From assembly GCA_017475485.1 (NCBI GenBank), contig JAFVFO010000026.1:1-43305 (forward strand): a stretch of 43,305 bases of DNA. Reading direction: 5' to 3'. Position numbers and translations under genes: made by a program. The notes below the pieces were generated by a model. The model was not told the origin of the DNA. It did no database searches and saw only the letters and a list, made by a program, of their open reading frames with translations. Shown here one piece after another: positions 32,375 through 37,992 of this stretch (positions within the stretch are counted from its first letter, which is position 1; each line of letters opens with the position of its first letter). The DNA comes from Candidatus Gastranaerophilales bacterium. Its GTDB lineage: Bacteria; Cyanobacteriota; Vampirovibrionia; Gastranaerophilales; Gastranaerophilaceae.

Positions 32375-35300
32375 CTATTTCATTAATTCGCCGACTGCCT
32401 TATAAACAGACATTCTTTGAGCTGCGTCTTTTTCAGCTTGAGAATATAAGTTTTCAGCAGCTTGCGGGTTTGTCTTAAGAAGTGATTTATATCTTCCTTC
32501 AGATCTGATGAAGTCTTGGTAGCTTCCTTTAGGATCTTTTGCATCCCAGCTAAACGGTTGTTCGTTACTTGGGTTGTATCTGTATAGCGGGAAGTAACCT
32601 GCTTCAACGGCACGTTTTTGTTCTGTCTGAGTTTTAGACATATCAATACCATGCGCAATACATGGAGCATAAGCAAATATGATAGATGGGCCGTCATAGG
32701 CTTCTGCTTCTTGGAATGCTTTTAATGTTTGCATTCTATCAGCACCTAGAGCAACGGAAGCAACATATACATAACCATAAGACATACTCATTAAGCCCAT
32801 ATTTTTCTTATATGTTGGTTTACCGCCTGTAGCAAACTTGGCAACAGCGGCTGTCGGTGTTGATTTAGAAGCCTGACCGCCTGTATTAGAATATACTTCG
32901 GTATCAAGAACCAAAATATTAACGTTTTTATTTTGAGCTAATACATGGTCGATACCGCCGTAGCCGATATCATTTGCCCAGCCGTCACCACCTATAATCC
33001 AGATTGATTTATCGCAGAAGTAATCTTCTAATTCTTTGATTTTCTTCATGGTTTCGCAACCGCATTCAGCTGCATATTTATCAATAAGGACTTTAGCTTT
33101 GGCTTGCGCCTTTATTGCTTCATCAGTTTTAGAATTATCCCAGTGGCTCATAGCTTCGCTTAATGCTTCTTTGATGTCAGCAGGTGCTTCTTTTTTTGCT
33201 AAAACTTCTTCAACATATTGTTTTAACATTGCACGATTAGAATCTACAGCCATTCTCATACCGAAACCAAATTCAGCGTTATCTTCAAATAATGAATTAG
33301 CCCAAGCAGGACCACGGCCTTCTTTATTTTTAGTATAAGGAATTGTAGGGAATGTACCTGAATAAATTGATGAGCAGCCTGTAGCGTTTGCAACAATTGC
33401 GTTTTCACCGAATAATTGTGAAACCAGTTTAACATAAGGTGTTTCACCGCAACCGGCACATGCGCCACTGAATTCAAATAACGGTTTTCTTAACATTGCA
33501 CCCTTGATTGATTTAATGTTATTTTTACCCATTACGTTATCAGGTAATTCATCAAAGAATTTTTCATTTTCAAGTTCACATGCTTCAACTTCTTTTTCAA
33601 TTGTTGACCAAGTGAATGCTCTTTTTTCTTCGGGCATTTTCATTGTAGGACATTGATCGGCGCAAACTCCGCAGCCTGTACAATCCATGCAATATACTTG
33701 AACTTTGAATTGTTCGCCGTTTGCATTCGGTTTAGCGTCAACTGTCTTAAATGATTTAGGTGCATTAACCATATTTTCTTTTTCAATTAATTTTGTACGA
33801 ACTGCCGCATGAGGACAAGCAGAAGCGCAAACACCGCATTGTAGGCAGTTTTCAGCAACCCAGTGAGGAACTTTTGGTGCAATTCCGCGTTTTTCAAGGC
33901 AAGCTGTTCCTGTTGGTATAACGCCATCAACCGACATTGCGCTAACAGGAATATCGTCACCTTTTTGCCTCATACAAGGTTCAATAATGCTGCGCGCAAA
34001 TTTATCTGCATCTTTTGATATCATTTCAACATCATCAACGCAGCCTGCACCTTCAACGCTTGAAGGTATTGTCACTTCTTCTGTTGCGTTAACTGCAGCG
34101 TCAATTAAAGCAAGGTTCATATTAACAACGTCATCACCTTTTTTCTTAAAGGTTTTAATTGTCATTTCTTTCATACCTTCTAAAGCCTGTTCAAAAGGAA
34201 TGATTCCGGAAACTTTGAAGTATGCTACCATCATAACTGTGTTAGCACCTTTACCGCGAAGTCCGGGTTGTTCTTTAATTAATTTTTCAGCGTCAACATT
34301 ATAGAATTTTATCTTTTTATCAATAATAGTTTTTTGCATATCTCTTGTTAAGTGATTAAATGCTTCATCCTTTGTATAAGGAGAATTTAACAAGAATACA
34401 CCGCCTTCTTTAATACCTTTTAATAAGTCGTATCTTCCGATATAAGAATGAGCGGAGCATGATACAAAATCGGGTGCAGTAATTAAATATGTTGATTTAA
34501 TCGGTTTATCGCCAAATCTTAAGTGTGATACCGTAACGCCGAATGATTTTTTGGAATCATAAGCAAAATATGCTTGAGCGTCTTTATTTGTATATTTACC
34601 GATAATTTTAATTGAATTTTTATTAGCACCAACTGTACCGTCTGAACCTAAGCCCCAGAACATGCAGTTTGTTGTGCCTGCGGGTTCTGTTACAATGTGT
34701 TCATCTATTTTTAAAGATTTATTTGTAACATCATCTTCGATACCGACTGTGAAGCCATGGAAACCATTGTTTTCAAGGTGTTTATAAATAGCAAGTACCA
34801 TAGAAGGTGTGAATTCTTTAGATGATAAACCGTAGCGGCCGCCTATGATTCTATAGTCTTTGCCTGCTGTTGCAGCTACAACATCTAAGAATAACGGTTC
34901 ACCGATTGAACCCGGTTCTTTTGTTCTGTCTAATACTGCAATACGTTTTGTAGTTGCAGGTAATGCTTCGTTAAAGCGTTTAACATCAAATGGTCTATAC
35001 AGTCTTACTTTAACTAAACCATATTTAGTACCGCGATTAGCATTTAAGTATTCAATTGTTTCTTCAATTGTTTCGCAGCCTGAACCGATTGCAACAATGA
35101 TATCTGTAGCATTCGGATCACCAACATAATCAAACGGATGATATTGCCTGCCTGTAACTTTTGCAACTTTATCCATATATTCTTGAACGATATCGGGAAC
35201 TGCGTCATAATATTTATTAACAGTTTCACGACCTTGGAAATATACATCCGTATTTTGTGCGCCGACTTTACATACAGGATTTTCAGGTTTCAAGGCGCGT

Positions 35301-35914
35301 GCTTTAAATTCTTCAATATATTGCGGTTCTACAAGTGATTTAATTTCGTCATAAGTTATTTCTTCAATTTTATGAACTTCATGTGATGTTCTAAAGCCGT
35401 CGAAGAATTGCAAGAAAGGAACTTTTGCTTTGTATGTTGAAAGGTGAGCAACTAAAGCCATATCCATTTCTTCTTGAACACTATTTGCTGCAAGCATTGC
35501 ATAACCTGTGTTACGACATCCCATAACGTCTGTATGGTCGCCAAAAATTGCTAATGATTGAGCAGCTAATGCACGAGCTGAAACATGGATAACATGCGGA
35601 AGCATTTCACCTGCAGCTTTATGCATAACAGGAATCATTAATAACAAGCCTTGAGAAGCAGTATAAGTTGAAGTTAGCGCACCTGCGACAAGTGAACCAT
35701 GGACAGCACCTGCAGCCCCTGCTTCAGATTGCATTTCTGCAACTTTAACTTCTGTTCCCCAGATATTTTTCTTATGTTGAGAAGCCCATTCATCAACCCA
35801 TTCTCCCATGGTAGAAGAAGGTGTGATAGGGTAAATGGCGGAAACTTCACTTAGTGCATACGCAACATGCGCTGCAGCATAGTTACCGTCAACAGTGATT
35901 GTGTTTTTTGACAT
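32375..35914 (-). CDS. nifJ: Pyruvate:ferredoxin (flavodoxin) oxidoreductase
   Basis: PFOR oxidises pyruvate with CoA to acetyl-CoA and CO2 and reduces ferredoxin. All domains are fused in the 1179-residue chain: domain I (YALSEVSAIYPITPSSTMGEW), the gamma domain (about 420-630), a 2x[4Fe-4S] ferredoxin insert (CLQCGVCASACPHAAVR and CTGCGVCADQCP), a further CAGCGETPY cysteine pair, and the thiamine-diphosphate domain with GGDGWANDIGYGG and NTGGQASKSTP. Length matches the ~1170-residue NifJ/PorA family. It is a single-gene unit behind a TATAAT element (35956-35961) and ahead of a strong terminator. It is divergent from the hydrogenase-linked genes. Confidence 0.98.
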   Translation of the reverse strand: MSKNTITVDGNYAAAHVAYALSEVSAIYPITPSSTMGEWVDEWASQHKKNIWGTEVKVAEMQSEAGAAGAVHGSLVAGALTSTYTASQGLLLMIPVMHKAAGEMLPHVIHVSARALAAQSLAIFGDHTDVMGCRNTGYAMLAANSVQEEMDMALVAHLSTYKAKVPFLQFFDGFRTSHEVHKIEEITYDEIKSLVEPQYIEEFKARALKPENPVCKVGAQNTDVYFQGRETVNKYYDAVPDIVQEYMDKVAKVTGRQYHPFDYVGDPNATDIIVAIGSGCETIEETIEYLNANRGTKYGLVKVRLYRPFDVKRFNEALPATTKRIAVLDRTKEPGSIGEPLFLDVVAATAGKDYRIIGGRYGLSSKEFTPSMVLAIYKHLENNGFHGFTVGIEDDVTNKSLKIDEHIVTEPAGTTNCMFWGLGSDGTVGANKNSIKIIGKYTNKDAQAYFAYDSKKSFGVTVSHLRFGDKPIKSTYLITAPDFVSCSAHSYIGRYDLLKGIKEGGVFLLNSPYTKDEAFNHLTRDMQKTIIDKKIKFYNVDAEKLIKEQPGLRGKGANTVMMVAYFKVSGIIPFEQALEGMKEMTIKTFKKKGDDVVNMNLALIDAAVNATEEVTIPSSVEGAGCVDDVEMISKDADKFARSIIEPCMRQKGDDIPVSAMSVDGVIPTGTACLEKRGIAPKVPHWVAENCLQCGVCASACPHAAVRTKLIEKENMVNAPKSFKTVDAKPNANGEQFKVQVYCMDCTGCGVCADQCPTMKMPEEKRAFTWSTIEKEVEACELENEKFFDELPDNVMGKNNIKSIKGAMLRKPLFEFSGACAGCGETPYVKLVSQLFGENAIVANATGCSSIYSGTFPTIPYTKNKEGRGPAWANSLFEDNAEFGFGMRMAVDSNRAMLKQYVEEVLAKKEAPADIKEALSEAMSHWDNSKTDEAIKAQAKAKVLIDKYAAECGCETMKKIKELEDYFCDKSIWIIGGDGWANDIGYGGIDHVLAQNKNVNILVLDTEVYSNTGGQASKSTPTAAVAKFATGGKPTYKKNMGLMSMSYGYVYVASVALGADRMQTLKAFQEAEAYDGPSIIFAYAPCIAHGIDMSKTQTEQKRAVEAGYFPLYRYNPSNEQPFSWDAKDPKGSYQDFIRSEGRYKSLLKTNPQAAENLYSQAEKDAAQRMSVYKAVGELMK

Positions 35915-35955
35915 TTCATTCTCCCTTTAAACTTCTAAAATGTTTATATAACAAC

Positions 35956-35961
35956 ATTATA
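35956..35961 (-). promoter_or_regulatory. -10 element of the nifJ promoter
   Basis: On the minus strand the bases read GGGTATAAT, 41 bases upstream of the nifJ ATG. The matching -35 box is weak (TTTGCG-like at 35979-35984). It overlaps a plausible divergent promoter for the hydG side (TTGAAG 35973-35978, 16 bases, TATGTT 35995-36000). Confidence 0.45.
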
Positions 35962-36047
35962 CCCCCTGAAAATTGAAGCGCAAATGAAAAATAATATGTT
36001 ATAAACCAAGGCAGGCAATTGTATTTTTTTCTTTTTGTTTAATAATA

Positions 36048-36131
36048 ATGTTGTGCCTGACCCTTGAGAAGTTCTTTAGGGAAAGATACAGATTGTATCC
36101 GTATCTTTATAGGTACGGTTTTTTGTTATAA
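36048..36131 (+). CDS. Possible tyrosine-rich leader peptide (27 codons)
   Basis: A short frame opens with ATG 36048 and ends with TAA 36129-36131. Codons 14-23 read YRLYPYLYRY: five tyrosine codons in ten. The frame runs straight through the leader terminator and its alternative hairpins, and its stop overlaps the AAGGAG ribosome binding site (36130-36135) of the next gene. This is the layout of an attenuator leader peptide, and the downstream hydG encodes a tyrosine lyase. Against it: no Shine-Dalgarno precedes the ATG, and the TAT/TAC codons partly follow from the repeated GATAC/GTATC palindromes. Confidence 0.35.
   Translation: MLCLTLEKFFRERYRLYPYLYRYGFLL
36061..36124 (+). promoter_or_regulatory. 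Attenuator-like leader with intrinsic terminator and alternative hairpins
   Basis: Hairpin 1 joins 36061-36068 with 36074-36081 (one mismatch). The terminator pairs CCGTATCT (36099-36106) with AGGTACGG (36111-36118), a 4-base loop and six T (36119-36124), 18 bases before the next start codon. Two competing structures overlap it: AAAGATAC (36082-36089) with GTATCTTT (36101-36108), which would destroy the terminator, and GATAC (36085-36089) with the earlier GTATC (36095-36099), which would leave it largely free. This is the form of a transcription attenuator; no known riboswitch or T-box consensus is seen. Confidence 0.6.
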
Positions 36132-36142
36132 GGAGAAAAATT

Positions 36143-36400
36143 ATGGAAAATTCTGCGGAAACTCGCGTAGCTATTGTCGGCATTATTGTTGAAGATTGCG
36201 CTTTAACAAAAGATGTTCAGGAATTACTGACACAATATAGCGACTATATTGTCGGCAGAATGGGAATTCCATATAAGCAAAAAAATATCAGAATCATAAG
36301 CGTTGTATTAGATGCACCTGTTGATACAATTAATGCTTTAACGGGTAAACTCGGAAAAATTCCTTGTGTATCATCTAAGGTAGTTTATTCAAATGTTTAA
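36143..36400 (+). CDS. ACT-domain protein of the TM1266 [FeFe]-hydrogenase-system regulator family
   Basis: The 85-residue protein is a single ACT-like ferredoxin fold: RVAIVGIIVED, then YSDYIVGRMGIPYKQKNIRIISVVLDAP and INALTGKLGKIPCVSSKVVYS. The GRMGIPY and ALTGKLG blocks match the small TM1266-type proteins found beside hydrogenase maturation genes. The role is presumed regulatory and is not proven biochemically. AAGGAG precedes the ATG at good spacing. The leader contains a terminator/attenuator, and hydG follows after 140-150 bases of structured spacer. Confidence 0.85.
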   Translation: MENSAETRVAIVGIIVEDCALTKDVQELLTQYSDYIVGRMGIPYKQKNIRIISVVLDAPVDTINALTGKLGKIPCVSSKVVYSNV

Positions 36401-36411
36401 AACGGTGTGCA

Positions 36412-36524
36412 AACGGCCAAACGTTAGTTTTGCCGTTGAATATTACGATGCCTCCGTAGGATAATCGAGTAAAATTTGCAGCAACGACACTGAAAGCAAA
36501 TTTTTACGAGATACCCACGGGCGG
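36412..36524 (+). ncRNA. Candidate structured RNA element between the ACT gene and hydG
   Basis: Hairpin A: 36412-36422 pairs with 36427-36437 (11 bp, one mismatch, GTTA loop). Hairpin B: 36451-36460 pairs with 36514-36524, then after an internal loop 36465-36470 with 36506-36511 around tandem G-A/A-G mismatches, then 36471-36479 with 36496-36504 (9 bp, AAAATTTGC/GCAAATTTT) with a 16-base loop. Tandem G-A pairs and a long layered stem are typical of folded regulatory RNA. No T run follows. No Rfam class is recognised; TPP, SAM and glycine consensus strings are absent. Confidence 0.4.
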
Positions 36525-36552
36525 AAGTTAATAGTATAGAATGGAAGTTAAC

Positions 36553-37992
36553 ATGTACAATCCAAAATCATTAAAAGCAGATGAATTTATAAATCATGAA
36601 GAAATATTAGAAACTCTTGATTATGCGCAAAAAAATAAAGATAATCTTGAATTAATAAATAAAATTTTAGATAAAGCGCGCCCGAGAATATTGGGCAGTG
36701 AAACACATTGCGAGGGCTTAACTCATAGAGAAGCAAGCGTGTTGTTAGCGTGCGAAGATGAAGAAATAAATCAAAAAATTTATTCGCTTGCGCAGGAAAT
36801 TAAAGAAGCATTTTATGGCGACAGAATTGTTATTTTTGCGCCTTTATATTTATCAAATTATTGCGTAAACGGATGTGTTTATTGCCCGTATCATAATCAA
36901 AATAAACATATTCCAAGAAAAAAGCTCTCTCAAGAAGAAGTTAAAGCAGAAGTTATAGCTCTTCAGGATATGGGTCATAAACGCCTTGCAATTGAAGCAG
37001 GGGAAGATTCTCGGCATAATCCTATTGAATATATTTTAGATTGTATTAAAACAATTTATTCTATTAAACATAAAAACGGCGCAATTCGCAGGGTGAATGT
37101 TAATATTGCGGCAACTACGGTTGAAAATTACCGCAAATTAAAAGAAGCGGGAATTGGTACATATATTTTATTCCAAGAAACATATCACAAAGAATCTTAT
37201 GAAAAATTACATCCGACAGGCCCTAAGCATAATTATGCTTATCACACTGAAGCTATGGACAGAGCAATGGAAGCAGGGATTGATGACGTGGGTTTGGGCG
37301 TTCTGTTTGGTTTAGAAAGATACAAATATGAATTTGCCGCTCTTTTAATGCACGCTGAGCACCTTGAAGCAGTACATGGGGTTGGGCCTCATACAATTTC
37401 CGTTCCGAGGGTTAAAAAAGCGGATGATATTGACCCAAGTAAATTTGATAACGGAATAGATGATGAAACATTTGCTAAAATTACAGCGTTGATTAGAATT
37501 TCAGTACCATATACGGGTATGATTGTATCAACAAGAGAATCGCAGACGGTTCGCGAAAAACTTTTAAAATTAGGCATTTCACAGGTTTCCGGTGCTTCAA
37601 GAACATCAGTGGGCGGATATACGGAAGCCAAGCGCCCGCATGATACAGAACAATTTGATGTTTCGGATAATCGCTCGTTAGATGAAGTAATTAACTGGTT
37701 AATGCGCTTGGGCTACATTCCTTCTTTCTGTACGGCATGCTATAGAGAAGGCAGAACGGGCGACAGATTTATGTCTTTATGTAAAACAGGGGCTATTCAA
37801 AACTGTTGTCAGCCAAATGCGCTAATTACTTTAAAAGAATTTTTAGTTGATTATGCAACGCCTGAAACCAAGGCGATAGGTGAAGAATTGATTAAGAAAG
37901 AATTAAATAAAATTCAAAATCAAAAGGTTAAAGAACTTTTAGAAAAAAACCTTTCTCAAATCGAGCAAGGCGAAAGAGATTTCAGATTTTAA
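36553..37992 (+). CDS. hydG: [FeFe]-hydrogenase maturase HydG (tyrosine lyase)
   Basis: HydG is a radical SAM enzyme that cleaves tyrosine to p-cresol and dehydroglycine, yielding the CO and CN ligands of the H-cluster. The 479-residue protein has the radical SAM CX3CX2C cluster at C104, C108, C111 (YCVNGCVYC) and the HydG-specific C-terminal CX2CX22C at C393, C396, C419, which holds the auxiliary cluster and separates HydG from ThiH. ATG 36553 is preferred to ATG 36541 because GGAAG lies 5 bases upstream. hydE, hydF and hydA are outside the window. cysS follows after 43 bases. Confidence 0.95.
   Translation: MYNPKSLKADEFINHEEILETLDYAQKNKDNLELINKILDKARPRILGSETHCEGLTHREASVLLACEDEEINQKIYSLAQEIKEAFYGDRIVIFAPLYLSNYCVNGCVYCPYHNQNKHIPRKKLSQEEVKAEVIALQDMGHKRLAIEAGEDSRHNPIEYILDCIKTIYSIKHKNGAIRRVNVNIAATTVENYRKLKEAGIGTYILFQETYHKESYEKLHPTGPKHNYAYHTEAMDRAMEAGIDDVGLGVLFGLERYKYEFAALLMHAEHLEAVHGVGPHTISVPRVKKADDIDPSKFDNGIDDETFAKITALIRISVPYTGMIVSTRESQTVREKLLKLGISQVSGASRTSVGGYTEAKRPHDTEQFDVSDNRSLDEVINWLMRLGYIPSFCTACYREGRTGDRFMSLCKTGAIQNCCQPNALITLKEFLVDYATPETKAIGEELIKKELNKIQNQKVKELLEKNLSQIEQGERDFRF

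Follow-up and report, generated by a model that had tools for sequence, protein, structure and literature searches.

A conserved leader RNA with four exchanging strands, probably a transcriptional switch, upstream of TM1266-hydG in Gastranaerophilales

What decides whether transcription passes from a short leader into the hydrogenase-maturation genes behind it? This question is raised by a 43,305-nucleotide stretch of DNA from a Candidatus Gastranaerophilales bacterium (the window), in which a leader crossed by an open frame rich in Tyr codons is located upstream of a TM1266 family gene and hydG. HydG consumes tyrosine. The original prediction was an attenuator whose mutually exclusive hairpins respond to a ribosome translating this frame. 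The attenuator with exclusive hairpins before TM1266 and hydG was retained in our analysis, while the tyrosine leader peptide had to be given up. We propose that the leader is quite probably a conserved and new cis-acting RNA switch, riboswitch-like in type, which would attenuate transcription into TM1266-hydG.

The product of the first gene behind the leader scored 105.6 bits against TIGR03959, for which the cut-off is 60.8, and it is therefore counted as a member of the TM1266 family, with 2nzc as its relative in the PDB. PF21699 spans residues 8–79 of its 85 residues. Because this single Pfam domain covers nearly the whole protein, there is no room for a DNA-binding domain. For hydG, a start at 36553 was suggested by the homologues. 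On other contigs of the same genome, which is 90% complete, the [FeFe]-hydrogenase large-subunit domain was matched three times. The gap between the two genes (36401–36543, about 140 nt) contains a dispersed repeat, of which two more genomic copies with 82–84% identity were observed (C62 and C18). In six homologous loci, this gap was 27–51 nt long in all but one, L036, where it measured about 120 nt.

Table 1. Positions of the leader elements, the predicted promoter and the first genes, in window coordinates
Feature	Position	Strand	Remarks
Predicted −35 hexamer TTGTAT	36019..36024	+	weak, 3/6; 16-nt spacer to −10
Predicted −10 hexamer AATAAT	36041..36046	+	6 nt before strand 1
Five-Tyr open frame	36048..36131	+	judged not a gene: start predicted 5′ of the RNA, unconserved
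Strand 1 (GTGCCT)	36053..36058	+	pairs with strand 2 (OFF) or with strand 4, forming helix P1 (ON)
Hairpin P2	36061..36081	+	compatible with OFF and ON folds alike
Strand 2 (AAGATAC)	36083..36089	+	pairs with strand 1 (OFF) or with strand 3, forming helix P3 (ON)
Intrinsic terminator	36099..36124	+	stem 36099–36106 (CCGTATCT)/36111–36118 (AGGTACGG), six T (36119–36124); terminator-site scan
Strand 3 (GTATCTT)	36101..36107	+	terminator 5′ arm (OFF) or 3′ arm of P3 (ON)
Strand 4 (AGGTAC)	36111..36116	+	terminator 3′ arm (OFF) or 3′ arm of P1 (ON)
TM1266 family gene (ACT-like putative regulator)	36143..36400	+	first gene 3′ of the leader; TIGR03959, PF21699
hydG, H-cluster radical-SAM maturase	36541..37992	+	TIGR03955, 912 bits

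The intrinsic terminator that had been claimed for the leader is present, and it was the only terminator-like site (36099–36118 plus six T) in a scan of 35850–36600, where shuffled sequences gave a mean of 0.3. The duplicated GTATC, on which the two upstream hairpins had been based, is also real (36095–36099 and 36101–36105), but other competing helices matter more. As listed in Table 1, strand 2 can pair with strand 3 and strand 1 with strand 4, each at the expense of a terminator arm. For 36052–36126, a three-way junction was predicted as the best fold, in preference to the terminator; it contains both competing helices and hairpin P2 and has an energy of −23.4 kcal/mol (z −3.7), a stability that none of 200 shuffles reached. 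P2 is formed by CCCT 36061–36064 with AGGG 36078–36081 and, beyond a mismatch, GAGA 36066–36069 with TCTT 36073–36076.

A promoter was predicted immediately upstream of these strands, using a scan with spacers of 16–18 nt only, in which the −10 end was searched 3–12 nt before the conserved RNA. Among 30 leaders, the best −10 ended 5–7 nt 5′ of the conserved RNA in 29 and 10 nt in L066. Furthermore, a −10 score of at least 5 at the conserved place was obtained in 26/30 leaders, compared to 90 of 1500 shuffled upstream stretches. The RNA start of the window leader is predicted near 36053. In the window, the predicted promoter lies between the inverted copies of a hexamer (CAGGCA/TGCCTG).

The open frame exists as described, with Tyr codons at 14, 17, 19, 21 and 23. 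As many as five in a frame free of stops is unusual for its base composition, being reached by 32 of 20,000 shuffles of the frame. No Shine-Dalgarno was seen before ATG 36048, and the Tyr codons sit in the GATAC, GTATC and GGTAC arms of the helices; both had been named as doubts in the original prediction. The ATG is located one base 3′ of the predicted −10. Because the −10 at this conserved place ends one base earlier, the ATG is likely untranscribed, and it probably lies outside the transcript, upstream of the predicted RNA start. At the homologous place, an ATG was found in 2/30 leaders, namely in the window and in L058, where the frame contained zero Tyr codons within the leader. At least four Tyr codons in a frame that spans the leader without a stop were observed in 1/30, the window itself, and at least three in 4/30. 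Similarly, when frames starting inside the leader were considered, the window had four Tyr codons, five others had three and the remaining 24 had two or fewer. A shorter frame of the window, from TTG 36093 behind AGGGA, carries four.

These results bear on the idea that a ribosome stalled at Tyr codons alters the folding, such that transcription continues. The idea draws on the five Tyr codons in ten within a 27-codon frame, which exceed what composition gives, on the consumption of tyrosine by HydG and on the four-Tyr frame from TTG 36093. It conflicts with the position of the ATG, one base past the −10, lacking a Shine-Dalgarno and shared by two leaders, with the restriction of a four-Tyr frame, through the leader or starting within it, to the window, and with covariation that was found in the helices instead. 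We consider this reading highly improbable. The original prediction had named, as the outcome that would speak against it, homologous leaders that keep the hairpins and lose the frame or its Tyr codons, and the homologous leaders indeed keep covarying helices, the ATG recurring in one of them and the four-Tyr frame in none. Of its two alignment checks, the one on Tyr codons recovered a four-Tyr frame in the window alone (1/30), and the one on the terminator recovered several pairs that change on both sides across the leaders. Thus, of what characterizes a leader-peptide attenuator, mutually exclusive helices for termination and antitermination are present by sequence and calculation. A transcribed, translatable frame is lacking, as judged from the predicted promoter with the start unmapped, and a conserved run of regulatory codons is lacking in all leaders but one of 30.

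The conservation of the RNA was analyzed with an alignment of the 30 distinct leaders, whose median pairwise identity was 62%. Two circumstances bias this alignment (A4) towards the structure: it was fitted to that of the covariance model R1, and it consists of related leaders, so that the shuffle tests below overstate significance. R1 was built from 13 leaders. Of the 31 leader loci searched with it (137,838 bases), 30 were matched at E 2e-7 or better, 17 of them outside the model. Outside the T run, 18 alignment columns were alike in at least 28/30 leaders, 12 of these in the 5′ part. C36057 and T36058 of strand 1 and A36083, A36084 and G36085 of strand 2 were identical in all 30. In P2, 95% of the cells were paired and five of the eight pairs changed on both sides. 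When P2 was combined with the lower stem formed by strands 1 and 2, 86.9% of the cells were paired, compared to 75.4% in shuffles, and the covariation score was 0.418, compared to 0.201 in shuffles, with none of 500 reaching it. Pairs changed on both sides numbered seven versus 5.0, and 36/500 shuffles reached this count. In the lower stem, the three outermost pairs were not formed in 11, 16 and 12 of the 30 leaders, respectively. In the terminator, at least seven of the eight inner pairs were formed in 28/30 leaders by an ungapped count; L074 and L067, which failed it, are apparently off register through insertions.

The three-way junction also covaried as a whole (0.361 versus 0.195 in shuffles; 0/500). 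Its helix P3 scored 0.277 versus 0.180 (0/500), with changes on both sides reached by 301/500 shuffles and the number of pair types by 288/500. P3 slid by +3 scored 0.308, higher than the 0.277 in register, because the pairing register is shifted in leaders whose strand 2 is G-rich. P1 is a short helix, of which the outer pairs are not formed in roughly half of the leaders. Its score of 0.174 versus 0.132 was reached by 3/500 shuffles, its pairs changed on both sides by 99/500 and its pair types by 448/500; the key pair of P1 is G-C in 13 leaders, A-U in eight, G-U in six and another combination in three. As judged from this alignment, what evolution keeps in the leader is the RNA structure, not the Tyr frame.

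The four strands can thus be paired as 1:2 plus 3:4, which includes the terminator, or as 2:3 plus 1:4, which gives the three-way junction with the terminator absent. At the quartet of C36057, G36085 and C36105 (30/30 each) and G36112 (29/30), all four pairings are possible in 29/30 leaders. At the variable quartet 36055/36087/36103/36114, with variants such as G-T-G-C and A-T-A-T, all four pairings were retained in 17/30 leaders, compared to 10.2 when columns were permuted (0/2000). The outermost quartet gave 11 versus 6.0 (1/2000), and the excess at the other two of the four variable quartets was not significant (819/2000 and 225/2000). Sequence comparison establishes the RNA, its helices, its two exclusive pairings and its genomic place.

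Folding calculations were performed on the same leaders. Before strand 4 is included, the best fold had P3 with at least six pairs in 30/30 leaders, compared to 366 of 1200 shuffled 5′ parts. With the full-length RNA, the terminator fold was more stable in 21/30, with a median of 4.1 kcal/mol in its favour, and the antiterminator fold was favoured in 9/30, the window among them, with P1 present in eight of these nine. When the ON fold was forced, fewer than three P1 pairs were kept in 5/30 leaders. The outer P2 stem was absent from the predicted fold in 3/30 full-length leaders and 6/30 leaders before strand 4. By these calculations, the RNA would be poised between two folds of close energy.

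Another reading is a constitutive, promoter-proximal terminator and pause element of conserved structure that senses nothing and holds TM1266-hydG at a fixed low level. The greater stability of the terminator fold in 21/30 leaders would suit it, as would the existence of one TM1266 locus, L071, that lives without the terminator. A constitutive element of this kind does not account for the invariant unpaired adenines or for the quartet network, which keeps both pairings, and P2 covaries though it is no part of the terminator. We therefore regard a constitutive terminator as improbable and continue with the switch as the preferred reading.

The distribution of the leader was analyzed in genomes with TM1266 matches, which were found in 5/146 genomes of the family, 9/241 of the order and 27/65 of the genus g24 (overlapping sets), corresponding to 33 distinct genomes including the window. 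L078, cut at a contig start, was left out of the leader test, and 32 testable genomes remain. The full leader was present in 30 of these 32 TM1266-bearing genomes of the order, and TM1266 and hydG were located downstream in 30/30 leader loci. Among 16 further loci, 15 had leaders identical to ones already counted, which were counted once, and L028 was cut before the leader. L071 (1–348; genome G309) retains the 5′ hairpin, with CTAAC...GAAAG, and lacks a terminator; judged from this sequence, the TM1266 gene there would be free of attenuation or under other control. L012 (G247) has a divergent TM1266 (49% identity), with neither the leader nor an adjoining hydG in the available stretch. In the window's own genus, none of the 17 other genomes listed had a TM1266 match, and the operon is therefore patchy there. 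In the wider phylum, TIGR03959 matches were obtained in 30/386 genomes, five above the cut-off; the leader counts exclude the 25 below it and an unannotated hydG locus, L114.

Genome scans that were not conditioned on TM1266 gave the same picture at strict thresholds. These scans scored 11–15 candidates per genome under strict filters, and copies were possibly missed. In 287 genomes of the order, 15/15 matches of R1 at E 3e-6 or better preceded TM1266. In 386 genomes of the phylum, the same was true of 4/4 matches at E 0.01 or better of a second model, R2, which was built from Gastranaerophilales only. In the window's own genome, R1 returned one strong leader copy and one chance-level match (E 0.055; 150 of 1898 candidates scored). 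Twelve weak R1 matches (E 0.0095–0.096) were treated as chance, the inspected ones lacking the core or preceding unrelated genes. Of three cut loci outside this inspection, L050 and L054 are weak matches and L042 is a strong one (G279, the same gene as L076). The viral contigs searched gave no match.

Beyond the order, similar leaders were found in two Clostridia records of a plasmid collection, before TM1266-hydG in Monoglobus pectinilyticus (L109) and, in Vescimonas fastidiosa (L115), before a TM1266 gene with an NMT1-like ABC transporter behind it. On the latter plasmid (pMM35_01, 3007–5594), genes for an NMT1/SsuA-like substrate-binding protein, a permease and an ATPase directly follow TM1266, in the place of hydG, for which the 6.2 kb viewed carry no annotation. 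In targeted scans with filters off, for which E-values are rough, R2 aligned at the CTGAC...AAG core of both (L109, E 0.0038 in 226 bases; L115, E 0.061 in 181 bases), the 3′ half of the L115 alignment lying off the visible terminator. Whole-locus scans with R1 and R2 missed both leaders. A core descriptor, written after L115 had been seen, fitted 30/36 leaders and failed on L012, L060, L076, L079, L109 and L116, with a background of 3/620 windows. It fitted L115 (2/500 shuffles), but not L109. On these sequence matches, the Clostridia link of the leader through L109 and L115 is likely. In L079, from another lineage of the phylum, CCTGAC...GAAAG occurs 7 nt after TATAAT; R1 placed its match where a leader would be expected (E 0.84) and R2 elsewhere (E 2.5), which is poor model support. 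L079 and Acetoanaerobium L116 are possible further carriers of the leader.

The leader was also compared with known RNA families. In Rfam 15 scans at gathering thresholds, covering the window and four homologous loci, the leader was unmatched, and the window gave one tRNA elsewhere. Lax scans returned chance-level matches only, and neither the T-box nor other known riboswitch families were recovered. A known RNA family as the identity of the leader was therefore rejected, as no Rfam 15 covariance model matched it above chance level in the loci scanned. Riboswitches with intrinsic-terminator platforms are RNAs at the transcript start, before metabolic operons, with conserved junction or loop residues and exclusive folds. 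The leader resembles them in its predicted place at the transcript start, its conserved core and its terminator in one of two folds; it differs in that its core junction would block the terminator, not make it, and in having no Rfam match. Of the properties that define a riboswitch, it shows a covarying, structured RNA upstream of related genes and, by sequence, an expression platform linked to the core, because the strands on either side of P2, 1 and 2, are able to pair with the arms of the terminator.

Attenuators of the trp/his/phe type also choose between terminator and antiterminator through exclusive strands 1-2-3-4, as the leader does. Unlike them, the leader has no conserved leader frame and its start codon is predicted outside the RNA; moreover, it keeps both 1:2 plus 3:4 and 2:3 plus 1:4, with a conserved hairpin between strands 1 and 2. 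RAT-type protein-dependent antiterminators form a further comparison class. Like PyrR-binding leaders (RF00515) and RAT, the leader combines a hairpin that has internal loops with a terminator/antiterminator arrangement. Weak matches to RF00515 were seen in L018, L079 and L109 (17–19 bits against a gathering threshold of 54; E 1.4–2.2). In contrast to PyrR and RAT leaders, its hairpin is apart from the terminator, and the downstream genes are unrelated to pyrimidines. Among the matches listed in open-licence literature, neither RNA-level control of [FeFe]-hydrogenase maturation nor such a leader of TM1266 or hydG was found, and the leader RNA is apparently undescribed so far. The excerpts of two papers concern Moco riboswitches at genes other than hydG (PMC3543383) and a Rex site at hydG (PMC8457756).

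As for the start site, the folding order, the direction of switching and the existence of a ligand, we infer the following scheme. RNA synthesis would begin at about 36053, and P2 would form early, fitting either fold. Strand 3, once made, would pair with strand 2 as P3, thereby blocking the 5′ arm of the terminator. In the OFF state, the emerging strand 4 would capture strand 3 to form the terminator, and strand 1 would close on strand 2 below P2. In the ON state, strand 4 would instead pair with strand 1, giving the P1-P2-P3 three-way junction without a terminator. A binder, either a small molecule or a protein, may recognize conserved residues in and around P2 and thereby bias the choice of fold; candidate residues are A36060, A36082–A36083 and the pairs A36067–T36075 and G36068–C36074.

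Two candidates stand out for the signal, a small ligand and TM1266 itself. In the latter case, the one-domain ACT-like protein would act in trans on its own leader, binding around P2, and would tune the operon by feedback or antitermination. The leader goes with TM1266, including in Vescimonas, next to the ABC transporter genes and without annotated hydG, a single instance for which model support is borderline. The models also found nothing at L110, L112 and L113, hydG loci where TM1266 is unannotated alongside, although this silence is weak because the same whole-locus scans missed L109 and L115. The span of PF21699, leaving no DNA-binding domain, would suit a regulator of RNA, but the pI was 4.9–6.6 in six of eight TM1266 proteins and 8.9–9.1 in two, so there is no general basic character. 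Taken as the specific answer, TM1266 as the factor is a tentative and rather unlikely option. The transporter neighbour in Vescimonas may give a clue to the metabolite with which TM1266 is connected.

A broader formulation, on which we are evenly divided, is that the switch represents a new sensor class for H-cluster maturation. An old and widespread leader of Gastranaerophilales and Clostridia would read a metabolite of HydG chemistry, or TM1266 as an RNA regulator free of DNA binding, and a four-strand exchange would open transcription. The TM1266 family is named a putative regulator without room for a DNA-binding domain, and a leader that seems to travel with it, in one case without hydG as a neighbour, offers a direct test of the family's role. 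Should a metabolite be what the leader senses, the identity of this ligand would reveal what the cells monitor in deciding whether to build the H-cluster.

Two further observations were made in the window. A pyruvate:ferredoxin oxidoreductase gene diverges from TM1266-hydG, with an upstream region common to both (32375–36142 of the window). At the contig end (43027–43305), both strands are open and encode a repeated peptide, and this segment looks like a tandem repeat truncated where the contig stops.
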